Part shown: piece by piece, positions 55 through 28,132 of the stretch
How the letters are laid out: each line of letters opens with the position of its first letter
Numbering within the stretch: position 1 is the stretch's first letter
Origin: a virus
Length of the DNA: 47,805 nucleotides
IMG/VR virus record: IMGVR_UViG_3300006224_000014
Span: 1-47,805 of that record
Direction: 5' to 3' (one strand)
Made by a program: the position numbers and the translations under genes
Notes under the pieces: generated by a model
Told to the model about the DNA's origin: nothing
What the model saw: the letters and a program-made list of their open reading frames with translations, nothing else
Database searches by the model: none

Positions 55-498
55 GTGGAAATCACCGTGACCCTGAAGGTCCGCCGGGGCCGGGGTCCGT
101 TCGGACCCCGTGACGCCCTGGCCGACGCGCTTCGCCTGAAGCTCCTGACCGGCGGCCCCATCCGCACCTCCACGACCGAGTGGGAAGTAGACGAGGTGGA
201 GGTTCACCCGTCCAAGGCCGAGGAGGATGAGGTCGGCAAGGTGCTCGGCCCCATGCTGCTTGCCCTGGAACGGGCCTACCTGGATGGCGCCTTCGACGAC
301 GACCTCTCGGGGCTCACCGTCGTGGAGCGCCTGCTGGCGAAGGGCGTTCTGGTCATGGAGACCGAACGCAGGCGCCAGGTCCAGACCAAGCACCACGTCA
401 AGACCGGGCGCCCGCGCGCCCTGCCCGAAGCTGACCGCGAGGGCGACGAGTCCTACGCCGCCGAGCTCCAGGCCTGGCTCCAGGGGGCGGCGGCATGA
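55..498 (+). CDS. Hypothetical protein, first gene after the integrase promoter
   Basis: 147 residues, function not recognised. I chose the GTG at 55 because AAGGGAGG lies 7 nt upstream; an in-frame ATG at 22 lies inside the -10 element and is unlikely to be used. The protein is mixed charged, with an N-terminal beta-rich stretch and acidic central helices. Its ATGA overlap with int (495-498) indicates translational coupling, so it may be an integration or early-lysogeny accessory factor. That role comes from position only. Confidence 0.75.
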   Translation: MEITVTLKVRRGRGPFGPRDALADALRLKLLTGGPIRTSTTEWEVDEVEVHPSKAEEDEVGKVLGPMLLALERAYLDGAFDDDLSGLTVVERLLAKGVLVMETERRRQVQTKHHVKTGRPRALPEADREGDESYAAELQAWLQGAAA

Positions 499-1613
499 AG
501 GGCTACAAGCGGCGGCGCGGGGACGCCTGGTTGCTGGAGGTGTCCACGGGTTTCGACGCCCGGACCTCCCGCTACCGCAAGCGGACCGAGACCTACCACG
601 GCACGTCGCGCGAGGCCGACGAGCGGCTCGCCGCGATGGTGCGCGAGGCCGAGCTCGGCTTCGGCCTGGACGCGAACCCTCGCCACCTGCGCCTGTGGAC
701 CTTCATCGAGGATGAGTACCTCCCGTACAAGCAGGCCGAGGGCCTGTCCTCGGTGAAGGAGTACCGGCGCCTGCTGGGCTACGTCCCCGACTGGCTGGTG
801 AACGCCCCCATCGGGTCGGTCACCCCGGCCATGGTGTCGCGCTGGGTGCGCGAGATGGTCGGCGCCGGGCTGGCGCCGAGCACCGTCCGGCTCCGGCTGA
901 ACCGCCTGTCCGGCGTGTTCACCCACGCGATGCGCCTGCGCCTGGTCACCTTCAATCCCGCGGCGGGCCTGGGCCCCCGCGATGGTGACCGTAGCGTGGC
1001 CCCACCGCTGGAGCCCGAGGATGCCGTTGCGCTGCTTGGGTTCTCCAGGAACACGATGGTCGAGGTGCCCGTAGCTCTGGCCCTCGGCTGCGGCCTCCGC
1101 CGCGGCGAGGTGCTGGGCCTGCGCTGGGCCGACGTGGATTTCGAGACCGAGGAGCTCCACGTCCGCCAGACGGTCCGCCCGGACGGCACGTTCGGCGGGC
1201 CCAAGACCGCGGCCGGGCGCCGCGCCGTGCCGATGCCGGACTTCGTGGTGGAGTCCCTGCTGAGACACCGTGCAGAGCAACGGAAGCTGCGTCTGTTCAT
1301 GGGCCCCCGGTGGAGTGACCACGACCTCGTGTACCCGAGCCAGACCGGCGCCCCGCTGCACCCGCGCTCGCTCTGGAACCGCTGGGAAAACTTCCGCAGA
1401 GCGCACCGCCTGGCGTTGCGCTTCCACGATTTGCGCCACGCCTACGCCACCCTCATGGGCGAGAGCGGGGCGGACATCAACGACCTGAAGGAGCTCATGG
1501 GCCACTCCCGGAGCTCGGTGACGATGGATATGTACCAGAAAGCCTTGGGGCGCAAGAAGCACCGCCGCGTTGAGGCTTTCGGGGACCTGATGAGAGGAGG
1601 AGAGGACCGATGA
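495..1613 (+). CDS. int: Tyrosine recombinase (phage integrase)
   Basis: 372 residues, usual size for an actinophage tyrosine integrase. The N-terminal part (about 1-65) is a basic arm-type DNA-binding domain, residues about 70-160 form the SAM-like core-binding domain, and the rest is catalytic. Visible catalytic residues are R202 (GLRRGEVLGL), H311 and R314 (HDLRHAYAT), H337 (MGHSRSS) and the nucleophile Y347 (MDMYQKAL). A Lys in GGPKTAAGRR fits the beta-hairpin lysine. It would integrate and excise the phage at attP/attB. It overlaps both neighbours by ATGA. The obvious attP candidate is the gap at 2908-3136. Confidence 0.95.
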   Translation: MKGYKRRRGDAWLLEVSTGFDARTSRYRKRTETYHGTSREADERLAAMVREAELGFGLDANPRHLRLWTFIEDEYLPYKQAEGLSSVKEYRRLLGYVPDWLVNAPIGSVTPAMVSRWVREMVGAGLAPSTVRLRLNRLSGVFTHAMRLRLVTFNPAAGLGPRDGDRSVAPPLEPEDAVALLGFSRNTMVEVPVALALGCGLRRGEVLGLRWADVDFETEELHVRQTVRPDGTFGGPKTAAGRRAVPMPDFVVESLLRHRAEQRKLRLFMGPRWSDHDLVYPSQTGAPLHPRSLWNRWENFRRAHRLALRFHDLRHAYATLMGESGADINDLKELMGHSRSSVTMDMYQKALGRKKHRRVEAFGDLMRGGEDR

Positions 1614-8365: not shown

Positions 8366-9178
8366 ATGAGACTCCGAATCTACTCCGCCGCAACGGGTGT
8401 CAAGGTCTACGTCGGCACCCTGTGGGTGCAGGACGGCAAGGTGGTCTCCGACGAGCCTCGGATGGCCTGGCTCCTCCACCCGAAGTACGGCTACAAGGTC
8501 CCGCTCAAAATCGAGGGCGAGTGGCGGGGCTACCGCGCCGCCGAGTGCCCCGACGCCCAGGCGTGGCTCAGGGGCGTAGCAGAGTCGTTGCGCTACCCCA
8601 TGAGCGCGGTCCTGGACGAGGCCAAGTTCAACCCCTACCACGGACCCGATGGTCGGTTCGCTTCCGGCGGGCTCGGTGGCGCTGCCGCAGGCCGCGCCCT
8701 GAGCGACCGCTGCGAAAATGGGTTCACCATCCGCGTGGGCGATGGCTTCATGCCCACCAAGGGGTTCGGCGTTGCCATCCCCGGGGCGGAGGTCAAAATC
8801 ACGAACGCTGGGAAGCTCTCCAAGGCAAGCCTTGCCAAGACGTGCCAGAAGTATGCGGACGACCACGCCGAGCTCCTGGCCGTCCGTGGGAACCATTTTG
8901 GTGGCTGGCTCGACAAGGCCGACGGTACGCTGTTCCTGGACACCTCGCGCGTATTTTCCTCACAGAGCGCCGCTACGGCGTTCGGGAAGCAGAGCGGGCA
9001 GAGGGCCATCTTCGACCTGGCGAACAAGACCACCATCTACATCGACAAGGGGGCGAACATGACCACCGAGAAGAAGGCTGAGAAGGAGCCCACGGTTGAG
9101 GTCGTGGGCCTCCCGAAGGACGACCCGGAGCGCGCCGCGGAGCTGCTCTGGGAGCTGTTGCACGGCAAGGAGTCATGA
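8366..9178 (+). CDS. Head-operon protein with NPYHGPDGRF motif
   Basis: 270 residues. A basic N-terminal part is followed near residue 90 by FNPYHGPDGRFASGG, a conserved linker-like motif seen in many phage head-associated proteins, then a domain containing GNHFGGWLDKADGTLFLD and GQRAIFDL that recurs unnamed in actinophages. The C-terminal about 45 residues (from EKKAEKEPT) are acidic. It may be a packaged protein or precursor. Four nt after the MuF stop; its own stop overlaps the Pup start. Confidence 0.6.
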   Translation: MRLRIYSAATGVKVYVGTLWVQDGKVVSDEPRMAWLLHPKYGYKVPLKIEGEWRGYRAAECPDAQAWLRGVAESLRYPMSAVLDEAKFNPYHGPDGRFASGGLGGAAAGRALSDRCENGFTIRVGDGFMPTKGFGVAIPGAEVKITNAGKLSKASLAKTCQKYADDHAELLAVRGNHFGGWLDKADGTLFLDTSRVFSSQSAATAFGKQSGQRAIFDLANKTTIYIDKGANMTTEKKAEKEPTVEVVGLPKDDPERAAELLWELLHGKES

Positions 9179-9372
9179 TGGCAGAGCAGGTGCAGGTTCA
9201 GAAGCAGGCCCCGCCTGCTGCCGCCGACGGTGACGCCGGGCAGGTCCACGCTGACCCCAGGACGGAGAAGCTCAAGTCCGAGCTGGACGAGCTCCTCGAT
9301 GACATCGACGAGGTGCTTGAGGAGAACGCCGAGGAGTTCGTGAAGGACTACATCCAAAAGGGCGGCGAGTAG
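9178..9372 (+). CDS. pup: Phage-encoded Pup (prokaryotic ubiquitin-like protein)
   Basis: 64 residues, the same length as mycobacterial Pup. Residues 1-28 are disordered and Ala/Gln/Asp rich, and residues 29-58 are the acidic amphipathic helix that in Pup binds the proteasomal ATPase Mpa (ELLDDIDEVLEENAEEF, then VKDYIQ). The C-terminus is KGGE. Pup is ligated through its C-terminal Glu side chain to substrate lysines by PafA; many Pups end in GGQ and need deamidation by Dop, whereas this one is ready to conjugate. The ATG at 9178 overlaps the previous stop (TGATG), with AAGGAG upstream; ATG at 9175 is a possible alternative. No PafA, Dop or Mpa gene is present, so it must use host enzymes. 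I am confident of the family; the function in the phage is unknown. Confidence 0.9.
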   Translation: MAEQVQVQKQAPPAAADGDAGQVHADPRTEKLKSELDELLDDIDEVLEENAEEFVKDYIQKGGE

Positions 9373-9373
9373 G

Positions 9374-9440
9374 GGGGCGCTCCGGTTTCGACCCGGTGGC
9401 TAGGACGCCGGGGACGGGGGTTCGACTCCCCCGCGCTCCA
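9374..9440 (+). ncRNA. tmRNA-like tRNA-like domain lacking the mRNA-like domain
   Basis: Acceptor strand GGGGCGC (9374-9380) pairs with GCGCTCC (9433-9439), including a G-U at position 3, the alanine identity pair of tRNA-Ala and tmRNA. The 5' part TCCGGTTTCGAC matches the D-loop region of actinobacterial tmRNA. The T arm is GGGGG-TTCGACT-CCCCC (9416-9432). In place of the tag frame and pseudoknots there is only CCCGG (9392-9396), an 11-nt loop and CCGGG (9408-9412). The element starts one base after the pup stop. A3'-terminal CCA is not encoded (ACA follows). It could be a decoy, a relic, or a processed 3' end for pup mRNA. A canonical tRNA is unlikely because no anticodon arm fits. Confidence 0.65.
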
Positions 9441-9699
9441 CAAAATCGGCGACCTTTTCCTCCAGCTCCAGCACGTTCACCTGTGCCCCATGGTCGAGGA
9501 GGTAGGCCGCGTAGGCCGCCCGCCCCTCGATGGGCCACTCCGGGTACGGGATGCCGTAGAAGTCGGCGAACGCCTCTGCCTGCCCGCAGAACGAGCACAC
9601 CTCGGTCTCGTTGTCCGTCCTGCTCACGGCCGGGTACTGGCCGCGGTAGCGGAGCTCCTCCCCGCAGCTAGGGCATCTTCCGTTCCCAGAAGTGGTCAT
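9400..9699 (-). CDS. Zinc-ribbon protein antisense to the tmRNA-like element
   Basis: 99 residues. CPSCGEEL and CSFCGQAE give two CxxC pairs for one zinc site, followed by a helical tail. The last about 13 codons and the stop (9400-9402) run through the antisense of the tmRNA-like element, producing the tail ERGGVEPPSPAS, the kind of sequence that appears when a tRNA T arm is translated backwards. The genuine product may have originally ended elsewhere. Its start overlaps the upstream minus gene by 32 nt. Confidence 0.55.
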   Translation of the reverse strand: MTTSGNGRCPSCGEELRYRGQYPAVSRTDNETEVCSFCGQAEAFADFYGIPYPEWPIEGRAAYAAYLLDHGAQVNVLELEEKVADFVERGGVEPPSPAS

Positions 9700-9955: not shown

Positions 9956-9986
9956 GCGCCTTGACCGCAGGGGGATGGTCGGGCGG
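9955..9986 (+). repeat. 32-bp direct repeat, left copy, with stoperator-like motif b
   Basis: Matches 10997-11028 at 30 of 32 positions. It begins with AGCGCCTTGACC and continues through a run of G and GGATGGTCGGG. The two copies flank the secreted glycoside-hydrolase-like gene exactly, which suggests that gene was inserted, or duplicated with, its regulatory segment. Confidence 0.85.
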
Positions 9987-11006
9987 ATGAAGCGCGGACT
10001 CATCGGCCTGATAGCAGCGCTCCTAGCAACGTCGCTCTGCACCGCTGCTATGACCGTCCCTGGCGACACAGAGCCTACCGATTGGCCGGTCGGCATCTAC
10101 GGCGTGTGGTACAGGGATGCCGACATCCCGGCGATACTGTCGAACCCTTACGTGACCGGCTTGAGCATCGGGGTCGGATGGAAGGTCGTTCAACCCACGA
10201 AAACCTCGTTCGACTGGTCTGTCATCGACAAGAAGCTCGCCCTAGCCCAGAGCTACGGGAAGCCCGTCATCTTGAGGGTCAATGCAGGAGCGATGACTCC
10301 TGCCTGGGTCCTGGCGGAGGTCCCCTACCTCACCTTCACGACTGAGTACCTCTACGGATGGGGCATCCCTTCGGCGAACGTCCCTGTGGTCTGGCATTGG
10401 AAGTACCTGTCTTACTGGAAGGCATTTATCACCCAGTTCGCAGCTCGATACGGGTCGAACCCTAGCGTGGTGGCAATCCAGACAGCAGGGTGCGGGCACC
10501 AGGGTGAGATGTCGCTGCCGAACGACGTTCCTAAGTGGGTTGCTGCGGGGTACACCGATGCGAAGCTCATCAGGGCGTGGGGGGCGGTGCTCACAAAGTT
10601 CAGGAGCGCCTTCCCCTCGAAGCTCATCGTCCTGAACATCGGACACCCCTTCTACCCTGCTAAGACCTGGCCGACGAACGTGATGCAGCCGGTGGTGGAC
10701 ATCGCTCTCTCACTCACTCCTCGGGCGGGGCTCCAGAGCAACGCCCTGAGTGCGAACACCAGCCCCGGAGGCCCCTTCACGAAAGTCCTGGACGCAGCCG
10801 CACCGATGACCACCGTGGGCTACCAGATGATAGGGGATGCTCCGACGGCGGCGTCGTTGAGGACGGCGTTCGAGAACGCTCTGTTCGATGGAGCGGGGCT
10901 CTCCAGGGGAATCGACTACGTAGAGGTCTACGGCAAGGACATCGTAGACCCGCTGAACCAGGACGCTCTCCGGTTCCTGGCGAGCGGCGGACAGTCAGCG
11001 CCTTGA
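9987..11006 (+). CDS. Secreted glycoside-hydrolase-like TIM-barrel protein
   Basis: 339 residues with a clear signal peptide (KRGLIGLIAALLATSLCTAA). The mature part reads like a (beta/alpha)8 glycosidase of the GH5/GH42 type: VGWKVVQP, FDWSVIDKKLALAQSYGKPV, RVNAGAMTPAWV, then AIQTAGCGHQGE, where E could be a catalytic acid. Assignment to a specific GH family is not possible by eye. It may degrade host-surface or environmental glycans, or be a lysogenic-conversion gene. It interrupts the head operon between pup and the prohead protease and is flanked by 32-bp direct repeats, the structure of a moron. Confidence 0.65.
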   Translation: MKRGLIGLIAALLATSLCTAAMTVPGDTEPTDWPVGIYGVWYRDADIPAILSNPYVTGLSIGVGWKVVQPTKTSFDWSVIDKKLALAQSYGKPVILRVNAGAMTPAWVLAEVPYLTFTTEYLYGWGIPSANVPVVWHWKYLSYWKAFITQFAARYGSNPSVVAIQTAGCGHQGEMSLPNDVPKWVAAGYTDAKLIRAWGAVLTKFRSAFPSKLIVLNIGHPFYPAKTWPTNVMQPVVDIALSLTPRAGLQSNALSANTSPGGPFTKVLDAAAPMTTVGYQMIGDAPTAASLRTAFENALFDGAGLSRGIDYVEVYGKDIVDPLNQDALRFLASGGQSAP

Positions 11007-21718: not shown

Positions 21719-23217
21719 GCCCTGCCCCGCGAGGCCACCTTCATGGCCCGCCGGGCGAGCAGGCGAGTCACGTCCAGCTCCTCGCCGATTTCCAGCTCGA
21801 CGCCCTCCTCGGTGTAGGCAATCCCCATCACGCGCTGGGGCGCCAGGTCGTAGCGGGTCGTGAGCTTCACGACATCCCCCGCGCAGAGACCGTAGGGCGA
21901 TTGCGGGCCGTGGGAGGACACGACCGACTGCGCCGCAATGCTTCCCGTCGCCCTCGGGGTGAGAGCCTGCTCCAGCAGGCGCGCTGCGACCAGGCGGGCG
22001 AGCTTCTGGTCCGGGCGCACGTCGGAGCCCAGGTCGTAGTAGAGGCTGTTCACGACGCCGTAGCGGGCCAGCGGGTCGTGCTGGGGCGGGGCGTTCACGA
22101 CCACATCCACGGGAACCCCGCGGGATGACTCGTACCTGACGACCACCCGGTTGAAAAACTCCTGGGTGTCGAGGTTCCCCTCGCCCACCACGACACGGAG
22201 GGGCCTGTGGCCCCACGGCTCGAACACGAGCCGCTCATCGCCCCTGCGGACGGTCGGGTTCAGAACCGACCAGCGCCAGTCCTCAATCATGCTCAGGTAG
22301 TCCATCAGGTCGGCGTAGGAGCCGTCCTGCCAATGGAAACCGTCGAGCTCCACCGTGGAGTGGCCCGCGATGTCGGTGCCATCCAGGTTGAGGTCGGCCG
22401 CTACGCGGGCGGCTACCAGGCCGGTCGTAGGGGCCTTGATTCCCAGCCCCCAGAGCTGGAGGTCCTGGACCCAGATTTTCTCGTTCTGGGCGTGGGTCGT
22501 GGCGTCCTGGGTGCAGCGCAAGCCGAGCCGGACGCAATCGTATGGCGTGGAGAGGTTGTCGGTGATGACCTCGCCGTCCGAGTGGGAGCTCACGGTCCAG
22601 GTCCGCTCCTCCGTGGCGGGGTTGGGCCCCTCCCCTACCCACAGGACGTACTCCCAGTTGTTCAGCGTCCCGGACTTCCGCACGGTGAAGGAGATTTTCT
22701 GGATGTCCTGCCCCGGAATCCACCTGACGAATGAGCTGACGTTCCCGTTGGCGTAGGTCTGGTTCTTGTCGAGGACCCACCCCATCCGGGAGCCCTTGGT
22801 CTGCGTTTCCATCTTCACGCTCACGTTGTAGTGGAACGGGTCGGAATCGGCGACGACCCACTCACTCGCGCCGAGCTCGCAGTAGAACAGTTGCCCATAG
22901 TTGTTGTCCAGCAACGCTCTTGGGCCGGTCGCCCTGAGCGTGACCGCCCCGGAGTCCTCCAGCACAGGGTCGGTGGAGAGGCGGCCCCGCCAGAGCACGT
23001 CCCCGTTCGCGCGGTAGCCCACGACCGGGGCGCCCTGCCCCGCGTGGCGAACCGCCTTGGCTGGCACCTCCATGGTGAACCTGTCGTAGCCCCCGTAGGC
23101 CAGCGCGGTGGCCGTCCAGCGGGTCTCAGGGGTCACGGGGACGGCCCGGCCGTCCACCACCCAGGTGATTCTCTCGATGCTCGACCGCTCACGCTCGTGC
23201 GGGAGGAGGCTGCTCAC
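21715..23217 (-). CDS. Minor tail protein (tail tip / baseplate hub-like)
   Basis: 500 residues from GTG overlapping the previous stop (GTGA). N-terminus ITWVVDGRAVPVTPETRW and the C-terminal domain containing VVVRYESSRGVP, YYDLGSDVRPDQ and GDVVKLTTRYD resemble tail-tip proteins with a gpD/hub-like domain downstream of the distal tail protein. A central carbohydrate-binding-like insertion (about 130-260) is rich in Trp/Tyr. Last gene of the long minus operon. Confidence 0.65.
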   Translation of the reverse strand: MSSLLPHERERSSIERITWVVDGRAVPVTPETRWTATALAYGGYDRFTMEVPAKAVRHAGQGAPVVGYRANGDVLWRGRLSTDPVLEDSGAVTLRATGPRALLDNNYGQLFYCELGASEWVVADSDPFHYNVSVKMETQTKGSRMGWVLDKNQTYANGNVSSFVRWIPGQDIQKISFTVRKSGTLNNWEYVLWVGEGPNPATEERTWTVSSHSDGEVITDNLSTPYDCVRLGLRCTQDATTHAQNEKIWVQDLQLWGLGIKAPTTGLVAARVAADLNLDGTDIAGHSTVELDGFHWQDGSYADLMDYLSMIEDWRWSVLNPTVRRGDERLVFEPWGHRPLRVVVGEGNLDTQEFFNRVVVRYESSRGVPVDVVVNAPPQHDPLARYGVVNSLYYDLGSDVRPDQKLARLVAARLLEQALTPRATGSIAAQSVVSSHGPQSPYGLCAGDVVKLTTRYDLAPQRVMGIAYTEEGVELEIGEELDVTRLLARRAMKVASRGRA

Positions 23218-25631
23218 GACAAGTACCTCGGGTAGTAGCTGTACCCCATGGTCCAGGTGCGGTCGTAGACCTCCTGGTCATCCTCCGCCCCGGCGACCGG
23301 GGCCTCCAGGAGGACGGCGTGGACGAGGTTGAGCCCCGGGTCGGCCCTGAAGGAGCCTGGCCCCTCAAGGTCCACGTCCTGCGCGAACTCCCCGCCGGTG
23401 TCCAGCGACCAGGCCTGCCCGCTCTCGGGGTCGGAGAGGAAGTAAGCGTTCTGCGTGACGACCGGCTGGAAGAAGCTCTCCAGCGCAATGACTCCGCCGT
23501 AGACGGAGGTGTGGGTCAGGTTCTCGGTGAAACAGACCTGGACCTGGTAGGCGTCCGTGCCGCTGGCGTCGAACCTGAGAGCTACGACCTCCTCGGTCCA
23601 CTCACTCGTCCCCGTGGTCGTCAGGGTCTGAGAGGCAATCACAGAGCCTGCGCCCGCGCCTCCGACCGTGACGACGCGGACCTTGAACTTGCACCCGGAG
23701 TAGCCGTCGTCGAAGTACCCGACCTTCACCTTGAACTTCCAATGCCCTGCACCGTAAGTGGTCCCGGCGTTCGACCCGATGCCCGCGGCGTCGTACTCGT
23801 CGTTGAGGTACATCGGCCCGCCCGCCGTGGTCCCCGCCGTCCAGGTGGGGTCGGCGGTCAGCTTGTAGCAGGGGGTGGTCATGAGGCTGGGGGTGTAGGT
23901 GTCCTCTGCCCCGTCGCGGACGACCATGGCCGAACGCGGCTGGTGGTCCTCTCCGGGGATGAGAACCAGTCCGTCCCAGTAGATGTTGGTGTTCTGGACG
24001 CTGTACGTCTCCCAGAGCTCCAGGGCGAGGCCCTGGGGCGTCACGTCGGTCGGCTCAGGCACCTGGATTTTGCCGAGGTAGAGGTAGGACCGGCCGGTCC
24101 CCGCGTCTCGGAACGCTACGCGCTTCTCGACGTGCACACACGGCTCGGCGGTAGTCGGCGACCACCGGAGCTGGACCTTCCCGCGCCCGTCCTCGCTGCC
24201 CCCCGAGTAGATGCCGTAGACGTGCCAGGAGCCCCGGAGGGTGGTCATGGAGCCGGTCCTGTGGACCCGCACGCGCCTGACCAGCTCGTCCGAGCCGTAG
24301 TAGGTCGCGTGGGTGACTTGGACGGCGTTGCCGCCCCAGCACCCGGTCCGGGTCTGCTGGGTCGCCTCCGAGTAGAGGGTCCGGGTCCAGCCGTTCGCGG
24401 TGGCGGACAGGTCCACCCAGTAGGTGTCCTTGTTCAGGAGCGTGGCGAGGACCCTGCGCCCCACCACGCCGTTGTTCGTGTTCAGGGCGGTCATCATCTG
24501 CGTGGCCTTCACCCCCGAGCTCAGGAGCTTCGGGGTGAAGCGGACCGGGGCGCGCACGTCGCCCGCGTTCCAGAACGGCGCAATCCGCGAGAGCCCTGCG
24601 TAGGAGGGGTCCTGACTGATGGTGTCCTCACCGACGCTGAAAGGCGTTGCGCTGGAGGCCTTTTCGACCTTCGCGTTCCGCACCTGGATGACTTCCCCGG
24701 TCCCCGAGGACGTGGGGATGTCCAGGAAGAACATGACATCGGAGGTGTTGGCGGGCGCGGTGCCGGTCACGGTGAGCCGATACCACCGGCCGACGACCGG
24801 GTTCACGGTGGCGCCGTTGGTGGTCTGGAGTACGCCCCCGCCCGAGTTCCTGAAGTTCATCGAGGCTCGGAACGTGTCCCCCGTGGGGGTCCCCGAGCTC
24901 ATGCGGAAGTCTATGGAGCCCGTCACCACGTCGCCTTCGACGACGCTGCCAGCGGCGGTCGCCTGATTGACGATGTAGATGGTGCCGGTCGCAATCTTCG
25001 TGAGCTGCCAGGCCTCCGCGGTCCCCGAGATGGTCAAGGAGCCCCAGTCCGTTGCGTTGTGGCCCCAGAGGTCCGGGTCGCCGTCGTCGTCGCTGTCCCG
25101 CAGGCAGGTGGCGTTCTTCAGCAGGTTGTCGGCGGAGGTGATTTTCGCCCCGCGCATGGCTGCGCGCCGGAGGATGGTCAGTTGGATGCCCTCTCGCTGC
25201 TGGGCCTGCGACAGGAACAGCAGCTCGCTGTCCTCGCCCTGGAGCAGGGCGGGGATGGGCGAGGGGTAGAAGTCGATGTACCGGGTCTCGGGGCCAGCAC
25301 CGCCGTGGGGGACGTACTTGATGACCCCCCCGCGGTACAGGTAGCGTTGCAGCGCACCGAATCCGGTGCGGAGGTCCGCTACGGTCGTGCCGTCCACGGC
25401 CATGCGGAAGTCCATCTCCACGATGGTGTCGTGCTCGATGAGGAGCTCGCCGTCGGCCTCGTCGCTCGCCCCCTGCTCGACCCGAGCGTCAGGCGCTCCG
25501 AGGCTGAGGGCTCCGCCCACCGCGAGCCAGGTTTTCAGCCCGCCTGGGTTGTTCGCCCCGGTGGAGTCGTTGAAGTCGAACAGAACCGAGGTGAGGTCCC
25601 CGGGGTTCACGATTTGCAGGGTAGTTGTCAT
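23214..25631 (-). CDS. Large minor tail protein (distal-tail-like with adhesive domains)
   Basis: 805 residues, ATGA overlap with the tape measure gene. The N-terminal about 150 residues (LFDFNDSTGANN, IEHDTIVEMDFRMAVDG, LRTGFGALQRYLYRG) match the position and style of distal tail proteins. Two or three beta-sandwich modules follow (for example GTGEVIQVRNAKVEKASS) that look like carbohydrate-binding domains. It probably contacts the cell surface. Confidence 0.65.
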   Translation of the reverse strand: MTTTLQIVNPGDLTSVLFDFNDSTGANNPGGLKTWLAVGGALSLGAPDARVEQGASDEADGELLIEHDTIVEMDFRMAVDGTTVADLRTGFGALQRYLYRGGVIKYVPHGGAGPETRYIDFYPSPIPALLQGEDSELLFLSQAQQREGIQLTILRRAAMRGAKITSADNLLKNATCLRDSDDDGDPDLWGHNATDWGSLTISGTAEAWQLTKIATGTIYIVNQATAAGSVVEGDVVTGSIDFRMSSGTPTGDTFRASMNFRNSGGGVLQTTNGATVNPVVGRWYRLTVTGTAPANTSDVMFFLDIPTSSGTGEVIQVRNAKVEKASSATPFSVGEDTISQDPSYAGLSRIAPFWNAGDVRAPVRFTPKLLSSGVKATQMMTALNTNNGVVGRRVLATLLNKDTYWVDLSATANGWTRTLYSEATQQTRTGCWGGNAVQVTHATYYGSDELVRRVRVHRTGSMTTLRGSWHVYGIYSGGSEDGRGKVQLRWSPTTAEPCVHVEKRVAFRDAGTGRSYLYLGKIQVPEPTDVTPQGLALELWETYSVQNTNIYWDGLVLIPGEDHQPRSAMVVRDGAEDTYTPSLMTTPCYKLTADPTWTAGTTAGGPMYLNDEYDAAGIGSNAGTTYGAGHWKFKVKVGYFDDGYSGCKFKVRVVTVGGAGAGSVIASQTLTTTGTSEWTEEVVALRFDASGTDAYQVQVCFTENLTHTSVYGGVIALESFFQPVVTQNAYFLSDPESGQAWSLDTGGEFAQDVDLEGPGSFRADPGLNLVHAVLLEAPVAGAEDDQEVYDRTWTMGYSYYPRYLS

Positions 25632-28132
25632 CGGTTCCTCGTCAGGGCCTTGGCAAGGGCCCGCTCGACCTTGCGCTCGAAGTCAGGCATCCCGTAGATG
25701 TCCCCCTGGATGACCACGGTGGCCCCTCCGCCCCCCTGGCGCGGGGAGGCATCCACGATGGCCTTGCCGAGGCGGGAGAGCATGGAGGCGCTCAGGGGCA
25801 GCACGGCCTCAGCCCCGCGCCCGAAGCGCGTAGCGCCGAGCCCCTCGCCGACGAGGTAGGTGGGCCCGCGGGTCACGAACCCGCTGGCCCCCGCGATGAC
25901 GCCGCCCTGCGCGATGGGGATGCCGCCCAGCGTGCTGTCGCCCGTGGTGGACACGTTGATGCTGACGTGGTGGGTGCCCTCGATTTGGGCGAGCTGGTCT
26001 GCCAGGTAGTTGAGCCGCTCCGCCGCTTCTATGTCGCCCTGGAGCTTGATTGTGGGAATCCAGGTGTGAGCAATCCGCCGGAGGAGGGCCTCGATGCTCT
26101 CCAGGGGCCCGATGATGGCGTCGGCGATGGCGTTGCCGGTGCTCTTGGCGTCTCCCTCTGCTTTCTGCCAGATGCCCGCGATTTTCTTGAACTTCTCGTC
26201 GTTGGCGTTCGCCACGAGGTCGGCTGCCTTCACGCCGTCCTCGCCCATCCCCACGAGGGACATCGTGAGGGCGTCCAGGTTCACCCCGAGCTGCTTGGCG
26301 CGCTTCTGGATGGTCACGAGGTCGTTGCCCATCTCCCGCTGGGCCTTGAGGGTTTTCTGCATCCCCCCGATGAGCTTGTTGAGAGTGACGTTCTCCTGGG
26401 AGGCAAGCTCGCTGAAACTGTTTGCAACGAAGTTCATTTGCTGCTCGACACCGCTGGCGAACTGCTGGTAGGCCTTCTCCTGCTCCTTGAGGAAGGCCAG
26501 GAAGGCCTTTCTTGGCTCCTCGGCCTTGAAGGTCTCCATCAGCTTGGCGGACCACTCATCGAAGTCCTGGCCGGTGTATTTCAGGAAGTCCTGGAGCGGG
26601 CCTCTGTTCTTGACCACCAACTGCCGAAGCGCGTCGGTGGTGTCCTCTATCTGCTCCTCGGCCTGCGCCATGGAGCCGTTGGCCCAGTAGTCCATCTCCT
26701 CGATGAAGGCCTCTACGCTGTTGCCGCTCTGCCCCCAGACCAGGAGCCCTCGCTTCAGGACCTGGTGGATGGCGTACTGCTCGACCCCGGCGGCCCGCAT
26801 ACGGGCCTCCCACTCCTGGTAGACGGGGATGATTTCCTTGATGGCCTCCTCGGTCGTCTTGATGTCGAGAGAGGCGATGTCGCCCAGGTACTCCCCCCAC
26901 CCGGGGTATGTCGAGACCGGCCCGACGTTGCCCATGACATCCTCGATGTCCTCGATGAGCTGCAAGGGAACCTTGAGCTCCGACGCCAGCTCCCTCGCAG
27001 AAGTCGTTGCGGCGCTGAGGACCTGGGGCAGGATGGTGAAAGCTGCGAGGATGGCCGCAGCGAGGCCGGTCCGGGCGAGCGTGCCCATGCTGGCGAGGGC
27101 CACGTTGAACCGCCCGGTGCCCACGGCCGCCGCCACACTCGTCAGGCCGATGCGCTCCAGCCCCATGGCCGTCGTGAACATCAGGGAGGGAAGGAACTTC
27201 AGGGCCATGTAGGCCACGAGGACCTTGAACAGGGTGTCAGCGTTCTGCGCTACGGGCTTCAGGATGACCATGAGGCCGTTGGCGGCCTTCAGCACGTCGA
27301 GAGCGATGGGCAGCAGGCCCTCGCCCAGGGCCATGGAGAGCTCCACGACCTGCGCGCGGGCCACACGCATCTGGTTCGGCAGGGACGAGCCCAACGTCTC
27401 GCTGAAGTCGTTGGCCGCGGCCTGGGAGTCCTGCATGATGAGAGCGAACCGGGCGGTGAGCTTCTGCTCATCGGTGAGCTCGTCCCCCATGTCGGCCAGG
27501 CCCATCTCTACGGCCTTCGCCTCCACGCGGGTGGCGCTCAACACGATTCCGAAGCGGCGCAGGGCCTCCATCTCACCGGCCAGGCCGGACCGCAGGCGCT
27601 CCAGCATGGAGGCCGGGTCGATGTTGTAGAAAGAGCCCAGGTCAGAGGCCAGTTGCACCAGCGTGACGCTCATGGAGGCGGCCTTGTCCTCGGCCGTCCC
27701 CATCGCGGTGAGCATGGCGCCGAAGGAACCAGCGGCGTCCAGGGCCTCGCCCCGGGTTTGGCCGAGGGAAACGGCGCTCTCGTTGGCGAAGTCGATTACG
27801 GAGTCCGCTGCGGACCCGAACACGTTGCGGACCTTGTTCATGGACTCGTTCAGGTCCGAGGCGTACTGCATCCCCTTCAGCGCAAAGGCTCCCAGGGCGG
27901 CGCCCGCGGCGAGCGCGGCGCCGACCCACAGGGAGGTCATAGCCTTCGAGGAGGTCGCCGCAGCGCCCTCCATCTGGGCTGCGGTGGAGGTCGTCGCGGT
28001 CTTGGACTGCGCTAGACCGGCGAGGAGGGGGCTGTTGTCGAGGCCCAGCCGGACGATGACCTGGCCGATGACGCCGCCCATGGCGCCGCCACCACCCATG
28101 AATGAACCGATGACGCCGCCTAGTCCTGCCAC
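25628..28132 (-). CDS. Tape measure protein
   Basis: 834 residues; GTG start at 28132 one base after the chaperone stop, with GAAGGG upstream. Typical content: N-terminal Gly-rich hydrophobic stretch, residues 40-75 with AATSSKAMTSLWVGAALAAGAALGA, long helical segments and a central hydrophobic region near 330. With the usual 1.5 angstrom per residue, a tail of about 125 nm is expected. The C-terminus (VVIQGDIYGMPDFERKVERAL) resembles other tape measures. ATGA overlap with the distal tail gene. Confidence 0.88.
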   Translation of the reverse strand: MAGLGGVIGSFMGGGGAMGGVIGQVIVRLGLDNSPLLAGLAQSKTATTSTAAQMEGAAATSSKAMTSLWVGAALAAGAALGAFALKGMQYASDLNESMNKVRNVFGSAADSVIDFANESAVSLGQTRGEALDAAGSFGAMLTAMGTAEDKAASMSVTLVQLASDLGSFYNIDPASMLERLRSGLAGEMEALRRFGIVLSATRVEAKAVEMGLADMGDELTDEQKLTARFALIMQDSQAAANDFSETLGSSLPNQMRVARAQVVELSMALGEGLLPIALDVLKAANGLMVILKPVAQNADTLFKVLVAYMALKFLPSLMFTTAMGLERIGLTSVAAAVGTGRFNVALASMGTLARTGLAAAILAAFTILPQVLSAATTSARELASELKVPLQLIEDIEDVMGNVGPVSTYPGWGEYLGDIASLDIKTTEEAIKEIIPVYQEWEARMRAAGVEQYAIHQVLKRGLLVWGQSGNSVEAFIEEMDYWANGSMAQAEEQIEDTTDALRQLVVKNRGPLQDFLKYTGQDFDEWSAKLMETFKAEEPRKAFLAFLKEQEKAYQQFASGVEQQMNFVANSFSELASQENVTLNKLIGGMQKTLKAQREMGNDLVTIQKRAKQLGVNLDALTMSLVGMGEDGVKAADLVANANDEKFKKIAGIWQKAEGDAKSTGNAIADAIIGPLESIEALLRRIAHTWIPTIKLQGDIEAAERLNYLADQLAQIEGTHHVSINVSTTGDSTLGGIPIAQGGVIAGASGFVTRGPTYLVGEGLGATRFGRGAEAVLPLSASMLSRLGKAIVDASPRQGGGGATVVIQGDIYGMPDFERKVERALAKALTRNR

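Follow-up and report, generated by a model that had tools for sequence, protein, structure and literature searches.

Introduction

In tmRNA, the RNA through which bacteria rescue stalled ribosomes, AlaRS uses the G3·U70 pair together with the discriminator A73, and SmpB and EF-Tu use the elbow and the acceptor. A phage tmRNA consisting of the tRNA-like domain alone is already known from one phage, mycobacteriophage DS6A, and this TLD-only RNA is reported to inhibit the endogenous tmRNA in E. coli (PMC4131195 and PMC11915505, citing Mao 2009). The inhibition perhaps proceeds through titration of SmpB, whether or not the RNA can be charged (PMC4131195), and DS6A is the only phage for whose TLD-only RNA an inhibition of host tmRNA is reported as shown (PMC11915505).

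Here we analyze a virus record from IMG/VR that is 47,805 bases long (the window, that is, the whole stretch of DNA that was studied), for which a preliminary description had proposed a tmRNA reduced to its tRNA-like domain. We are highly confident, from sequence and comparative modelling, that the RNA is such a phage mini-tmRNA gene, and thus a new member of the type represented by DS6A. What appears to be new, relative to the open-licence papers covered by our literature search, is a broad and structurally conserved class of phage RNAs that ARAGORN misses and that, in the window phage, is paired with a gene for Pup.

The phage record

The record encodes terminase, portal, minor head, capsid and tape-measure proteins, an integrase, a primase and a WhiB-like protein; the WhiB-like and Pup genes point to an actinobacterial host. 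A search with the portal protein for near kin of the whole phage yielded only two contigs, at 25-27% identity, so that synteny with close relatives could not be used. The genes and the RNA that are relevant to the present analysis are as follows:

495..1613, + strand: tyrosine integrase (PHROG 1, E 3e-62), about 8 kb from the mini-tmRNA
8366..9178, + strand: upstream phage gene in the head-gene region, weak PHROG 3170 match
9175..9372, + strand: Pup, 65 aa, ending in GGE (PF05639, 68.7 bits against a cut-off of 27, E 8e-19; PDB Pup, E 1e-12)
9374..9440, + strand: mini-tmRNA (tRNA-like domain only), 67 nt without CCA (RF00023, 56.2 bits; model R1, 59.3 bits)

Elsewhere in the head-gene region, a GH42-like protein is predicted at 9975-11006 on the + strand (PF02449, E 1.5e-10). 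The terminase, portal and capsid genes run in the other direction from the tape-measure gene and a tail-associated gene, both of which are encoded on the minus strand (23214-28132). A further minus-strand ORF (9400-9699) shows weak N-terminal PHROG matches and extends into the mini-tmRNA, its stop codon falling within the CTAG of the P2 loop described below. Neither a promoter nor a terminator was found at the mini-tmRNA site when both were looked for.

A tmRNA reduced to its tRNA-like domain

The covariance-model search that the preliminary description had suggested as a check bore out its central proposal. In cmscan, the Rfam tmRNA model (RF00023, gathering cut-off 47 bits) matches positions 9374-9443 of the + strand from model position 1 to 374 at 56.2 bits (E 7e-21), with the entire mRNA-like domain missing from the alignment; this is the single tmRNA match in the whole 47.8-kb record. 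The alignment and the fold together assign the parts of the molecule, all on the + strand, as follows:

9374..9380: 5' strand of the acceptor stem, GGGGCGC, pairing with 9433-9439 (fold)
9376 with 9437: the G3·U70 pair (fold)
9384..9392: tmRNA-type D-loop, GGTTTCGAC (cmscan alignment)
9392..9412: P2, the middle hairpin, 7 bp, 9392-9398 with 9406-9412 (fold; P2 covaries in the family)
9399-9405: P2 loop, GCUAGGA, 7 nt (fold)
9413-9415: GAC (fold)
9416..9432: T arm, GGGGG TTCGACT CCCCC, 5-bp stem and 7-nt loop (fold, cmscan)
9433..9440: 3' strand of the acceptor stem, GCGCTCC, and the discriminator A73 (9440) (fold)

Both ends of tmRNA are thus present with the G3·U pair retained and the tag frame gone, as had been described. 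The earlier account of the middle as a 5-bp stem with an 11-nt loop needs correction, two pairs having been overlooked. The GGTTTCGAC D-loop motif also occurs in most of the host tmRNAs sampled, and the CCA is not encoded (the sequence reads ACAA). P2 sits where the mRNA-like domain and the pseudoknots would be, and this 21-nt hairpin is all that separates the two tmRNA halves, leaving no resume codon, no tag reading frame and no pseudoknots. Whatever the way it works, this RNA is not a standard trans-translating tmRNA. Nor is it a permuted two-piece tmRNA, in which the 3' half precedes the 5' half: the ends come in the normal order and in one piece, and the RNA, encoded in a viral record with terminase, portal and capsid genes, comprises the tRNA-like domain only, as in the DS6A type. 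The fold energy of the window RNA alone is only mildly unusual (z −1.9); the evidence that carries this assignment is comparative.

A family of mini-tmRNAs in phages

Degenerate patterns for the D-loop and the T-loop were scanned over 2.9 million viral contigs, and BLAST and covariance searches were run in addition. Sites were kept if the acceptor and the T stem were mostly paired, whereas the letters of the D-loop and T-loop were forced by the pattern; P2 was never used for selecting members. Over all loci in hand, 133 sites were retained, four of which are artefacts, leaving at least 129 instances and at least 91 distinct sequences. Both G3·U70 and A73 are present in all 91 distinct sequences, G·U at position 3 having entered the procedure only as a small bonus for choosing between possible 5' ends. 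A separate scan with the GGATTCGAC loop returned 21 contigs, 15 of them valid, and all 15 have G3·U. Many matches of the pattern scan and nearly all matches of the genome scan proved to be tandem tRNAs or chance hits, which were sorted out by structure.

Because P2 played no part in selection, it provides a clean test of the structure. Pairs 2 to 8 of P2 are canonical in 75-100% of 89 sequences compared to approximately 40-46% in shuffles, and slid registers are at chance. Across the whole structure, a MAFFT alignment of 30 members contains 171 double-sided changes where 50 are expected, and its covariation score of 0.682 (0.148 when shuffled) was reached in none of 500 shuffles; position 3 is G·U in every member, and pairs 4 to 6 alternate among GC, CG, AU and UA. 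These 30 sequences, among which the window is not included, also served to build a covariance model, R1. This model recovers the window at 59.3 bits (E 1.1e-13), a score that no ordinary tRNA in that search approached (at most about 28 bits), which excludes chance. The window also shows the features of the R1 class, namely a covarying P2 stem that follows GAC immediately, a GGAC preceding the T arm, and G3·U70. Given that the same kind of RNA occurs in more than 100 other phage sequences, we regard the mini-tmRNA with near certainty as a genuine phage gene that has received too little notice, rather than the single oddity for which it had been taken in the preliminary description, where both the widespread class and the Pup gene just upstream were missed.

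Carriers detected by BLAST among cultured phages include the Streptomyces phages LuckySocke, GiJojo, pSt2308, Alone3, BRock and Riptide, as well as Pontimonas phage phiPsal1 and Stenotrophomonas virus Jojan60; their copies score 60-90 bits with the family model, and the D-loop is altered in Alone3, BRock and Riptide. Riptide encodes a full tmRNA with a tag frame (L204, 94862-95130) in addition to its mini-tmRNA, which has a degenerate D-loop (L176:2976-3052). The length and sequence of the middle loop vary freely across the family. Most members possess an extra inner 3-bp hairpin beyond P2, which the window copy lacks; the window belongs to a short-P2 minority, together with L039, L063, L065, L082, L116 and L153, where P2 is capped directly, in several cases by tetraloops. 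Longer middles (51-81 nt) are rare, with 27 such stretches found, 3 of which have fully paired ends and G3·U. Among the rare intermediates, L181, L189 and L191 combine a middle of 58-70 nt with proper tmRNA ends and G3·U.

Standard annotation overlooks these genes: in a test on 14 loci, ARAGORN did not call a single mini-tmRNA correctly, and the respective sites of annotated phage genomes have either no feature or a small ORF. The flanking genes are diverse, including those for capsid, head protease, primase/helicase and WhiB-like proteins among others. In phiPsal1 (L174:5569-5647) and in several viral contigs, the mini-tmRNA lies directly upstream of the major capsid gene.

Among host genomes, a full tmRNA of approximately 317-389 nt was found in 54 of the 60 actinobacterial genomes searched. 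A filtered search of 396 actinobacterial genomes, which may miss weak cases, detected the mini form in one of them, namely the MAG from which the search had been seeded.

A Pup gene next to the mini-tmRNA

The ORF immediately upstream of the mini-tmRNA is a gene for Pup, the prokaryotic ubiquitin-like protein that serves actinobacteria as a degradation tag, by both its PF05639 score and its C-terminal GGE, and solved Pup chains match it at E 1e-12. Its start codon overlaps the stop codon of the preceding gene (ATGA), and a single nucleotide separates its own stop codon from the mini-tmRNA. The C-terminus of host Pups is either GGQ or GGE; GGE is the protein-targeting form and GGQ its precursor (PMC3769308). 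No Pup ligase was found in the window. Pup is absent from 35 other mini-tmRNA carrier records, no further phage record with Pup was detected by tblastn (with short, low-complexity queries, so not exhaustively), and a pattern search identified no viral contig with Pup. In the titles and abstracts of the open-licence literature, we found no report of a phage-encoded Pup.

The pairing hints that the two protein-tagging routes of the host may both be targets of actinobacterial phages. We put forward, as a speculation that we consider unlikely as a whole, that Pup, already in the GGE form that is ready for ligation, and the mini-tmRNA, which follows after 1 nt, are the two parts of a degradation-tag module within a single late operon of the window phage. 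Acting together, they could lead host protein quality control away from SsrA tagging, and feed pupylation or divert it; across the family, mini-tmRNAs would then be a widespread class of phage RNAs that enter stalled ribosomes charged and end rescue without a tag.

Possible functions of the mini-tmRNA

As judged from the sequences, the features retained appear to be those used by AlaRS, SmpB and EF-Tu, and those required for resuming and stopping translation appear to be lost. No SmpB gene was found in 30 carrier records, so any action via SmpB would use the SmpB of the host. The mini-tmRNA probably interferes with host ribosome rescue. Our preferred explanation, to which we assign a probability of roughly 0.6, is that it inhibits host trans-translation as an alanylated decoy or a dominant-negative molecule. 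Under this model, the mini-tmRNA would share a transcript with Pup and the late genes, be trimmed at its ends as in tRNA and receive its CCA; host AlaRS would charge it via G3·U70, and host SmpB and EF-Tu would bind it. Host tmRNA would then have a competitor for both SmpB and stalled ribosomes; in the A site, the mini-tmRNA could take the nascent peptide while offering no codon for resuming translation, and the net effect would be a damping of host trans-translation and SsrA tagging during infection.

A blocking or decoy function agrees both with the invariant alanylation signal and with the precedent reported for DS6A (PMC4131195, PMC11915505). The best reading is accordingly that of a competitor of host tmRNA, acting probably on the ribosome, and the strict retention of G3·U70 points to the charged form as the active one. 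The same conservation, however, sharpens the problem. For a similar molecule, inhibition is reportedly independent of chargeability (PMC4131195), so simple titration of SmpB leaves unexplained why G3·U70 is strictly kept in every copy of an inhibitor said to work uncharged. The presence of both a mini and a full tmRNA in Riptide is odd for a pure inhibitor, and we also count against this explanation that the window copy falls in the short-P2 minority, without the inner hairpin that most members have.

The main rival, which we regard as unlikely, is rescue without tagging, whereby the alanylated mini-tmRNA and host SmpB would free stalled ribosomes without adding a degradation tag, so that the RNA would be working rather than inhibitory, as has been proposed for mitochondrial tmRNAs whose mRNA-like region was lost. 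That G3·U70 and A73 never vary implies a need for charging, tmRNAs without a coding sequence exist in mitochondria and plastids, the mitochondrial ones being thought to be still helpful (PMC11915505), and phages with full tmRNAs, including Riptide with both forms, make the supply of rescue a phage strategy. On the other hand, the RNA contains no stop codon for ribosome release, and the one phage form that has been tested inhibited endogenous tmRNA in E. coli, as reported in the same paper.

Rather than acting on the ribosome, the mini-tmRNA might serve as a decoy or substitute in the face of RNA-cutting defences, absorbing or resisting a nuclease or toxin that targets tRNA or tmRNA. Other tRNA genes are found nearby in 20 of the 91 loci, and an RNA ligase gene lies within the tRNA clusters of the Streptomyces phages named above; most loci, however, have no tRNAs nearby, and conservation falls on the elbow and G3·U, not on the anticodon-like loop, which is free in length and sequence. 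We consider this explanation improbable. Still less probable is a role in RNA processing, with the tRNA-like fold being cut by tRNA-maturation enzymes and so separating late transcripts, for example before the major capsid gene. That gene is the next one downstream in 10 of 55 loci, and the RNA begins 1-2 nt past a stop codon in the window and in phiPsal1; yet the neighbours are diverse, and a G3·U70 pair in every member would be unnecessary for processing.

Very little speaks for an attP or a relic of integration, in which case the integrase would use, or would have left behind, a duplicate of the 3' end of host ssrA. Such ends do serve as attP in phages (cluster K1, PMC10865867), and the window encodes a tyrosine integrase. 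An ssrA-type attP, however, comprises the 3' end only and lies beside the integrase; in the window, both tmRNA ends match, in order, and the integrase is about 8 kb away. A match to the 3' end of ssrA alone, which the preliminary description had named as a refutation, is therefore not what is seen. Furthermore, an integrase adjoins few family members, the attP region of Adephagia (L175) is unmatched by the family model, DS6A integrates at tRNA-Lys and not at ssrA (PMC10865867), and a search of 396 actinobacterial genomes, a set that may not include the true host, did not recover the 3' end of the window element even with up to two mismatches allowed. Finally, an ordinary or odd elongator tRNA is hardly credible. 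The 7-nt loop could be read as bearing a UAG anticodon, and ARAGORN calls a tRNA-Arg(tcg) at 9359-9441 (+), but this call, which is shifted and has a different 5' end, is a misreading of the mini-tmRNA. The D stem is missing, a C would occupy position 33, and relatives differ in having loops of 4 nt, loops of another length or an additional hairpin; the score of the tmRNA model also exceeds those of the other clan members, tRNA included.

Comparison with known systems

Among known elements, the ssrA attP of the cluster K1 mycobacteriophages (Adephagia) is also phage DNA resembling the end of ssrA; the window element differs from it in that the attP corresponds to the 3' end only, adjoins the integrase and is unmatched by the family model. 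The mitochondrial tmRNAs of jakobids and oomycetes (RF02544) and the plastid tmRNAs of Mallomonadaceae (~65 bp) likewise lack a tag reading frame. These are, however, organellar, and the mitochondrial forms, which function with nucleus-encoded SmpB, are presumed to aid rescue rather than to inhibit it. Standard tmRNA (ssrA, RF00023), including the full tmRNAs of mycobacteriophages and Riptide, shares with the window RNA the G3·U70 acceptor, GG(T/A)TTCGAC, GGAC before the T arm and A73, whereas the window RNA is 67 nt rather than approximately 317-389 nt long, with neither the mRNA-like domain nor the pseudoknots.

By description, the closest likeness is to DS6A, whose gene hardly extends beyond the tRNA-like domain of tmRNA (Hudson et al. 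2014, PMC4131195; the 2025 tmRNA database, PMC11915505; Mao et al. 2009). DS6A has been known as a single case, whereas the window copy resides in an unrelated-looking phage and adjoins Pup. Taken together, these findings turn the one-off of DS6A into a common and conserved class of phage RNAs, and cultured phages of Streptomyces, Pontimonas and Stenotrophomonas make the role of the mini-tmRNA testable now.
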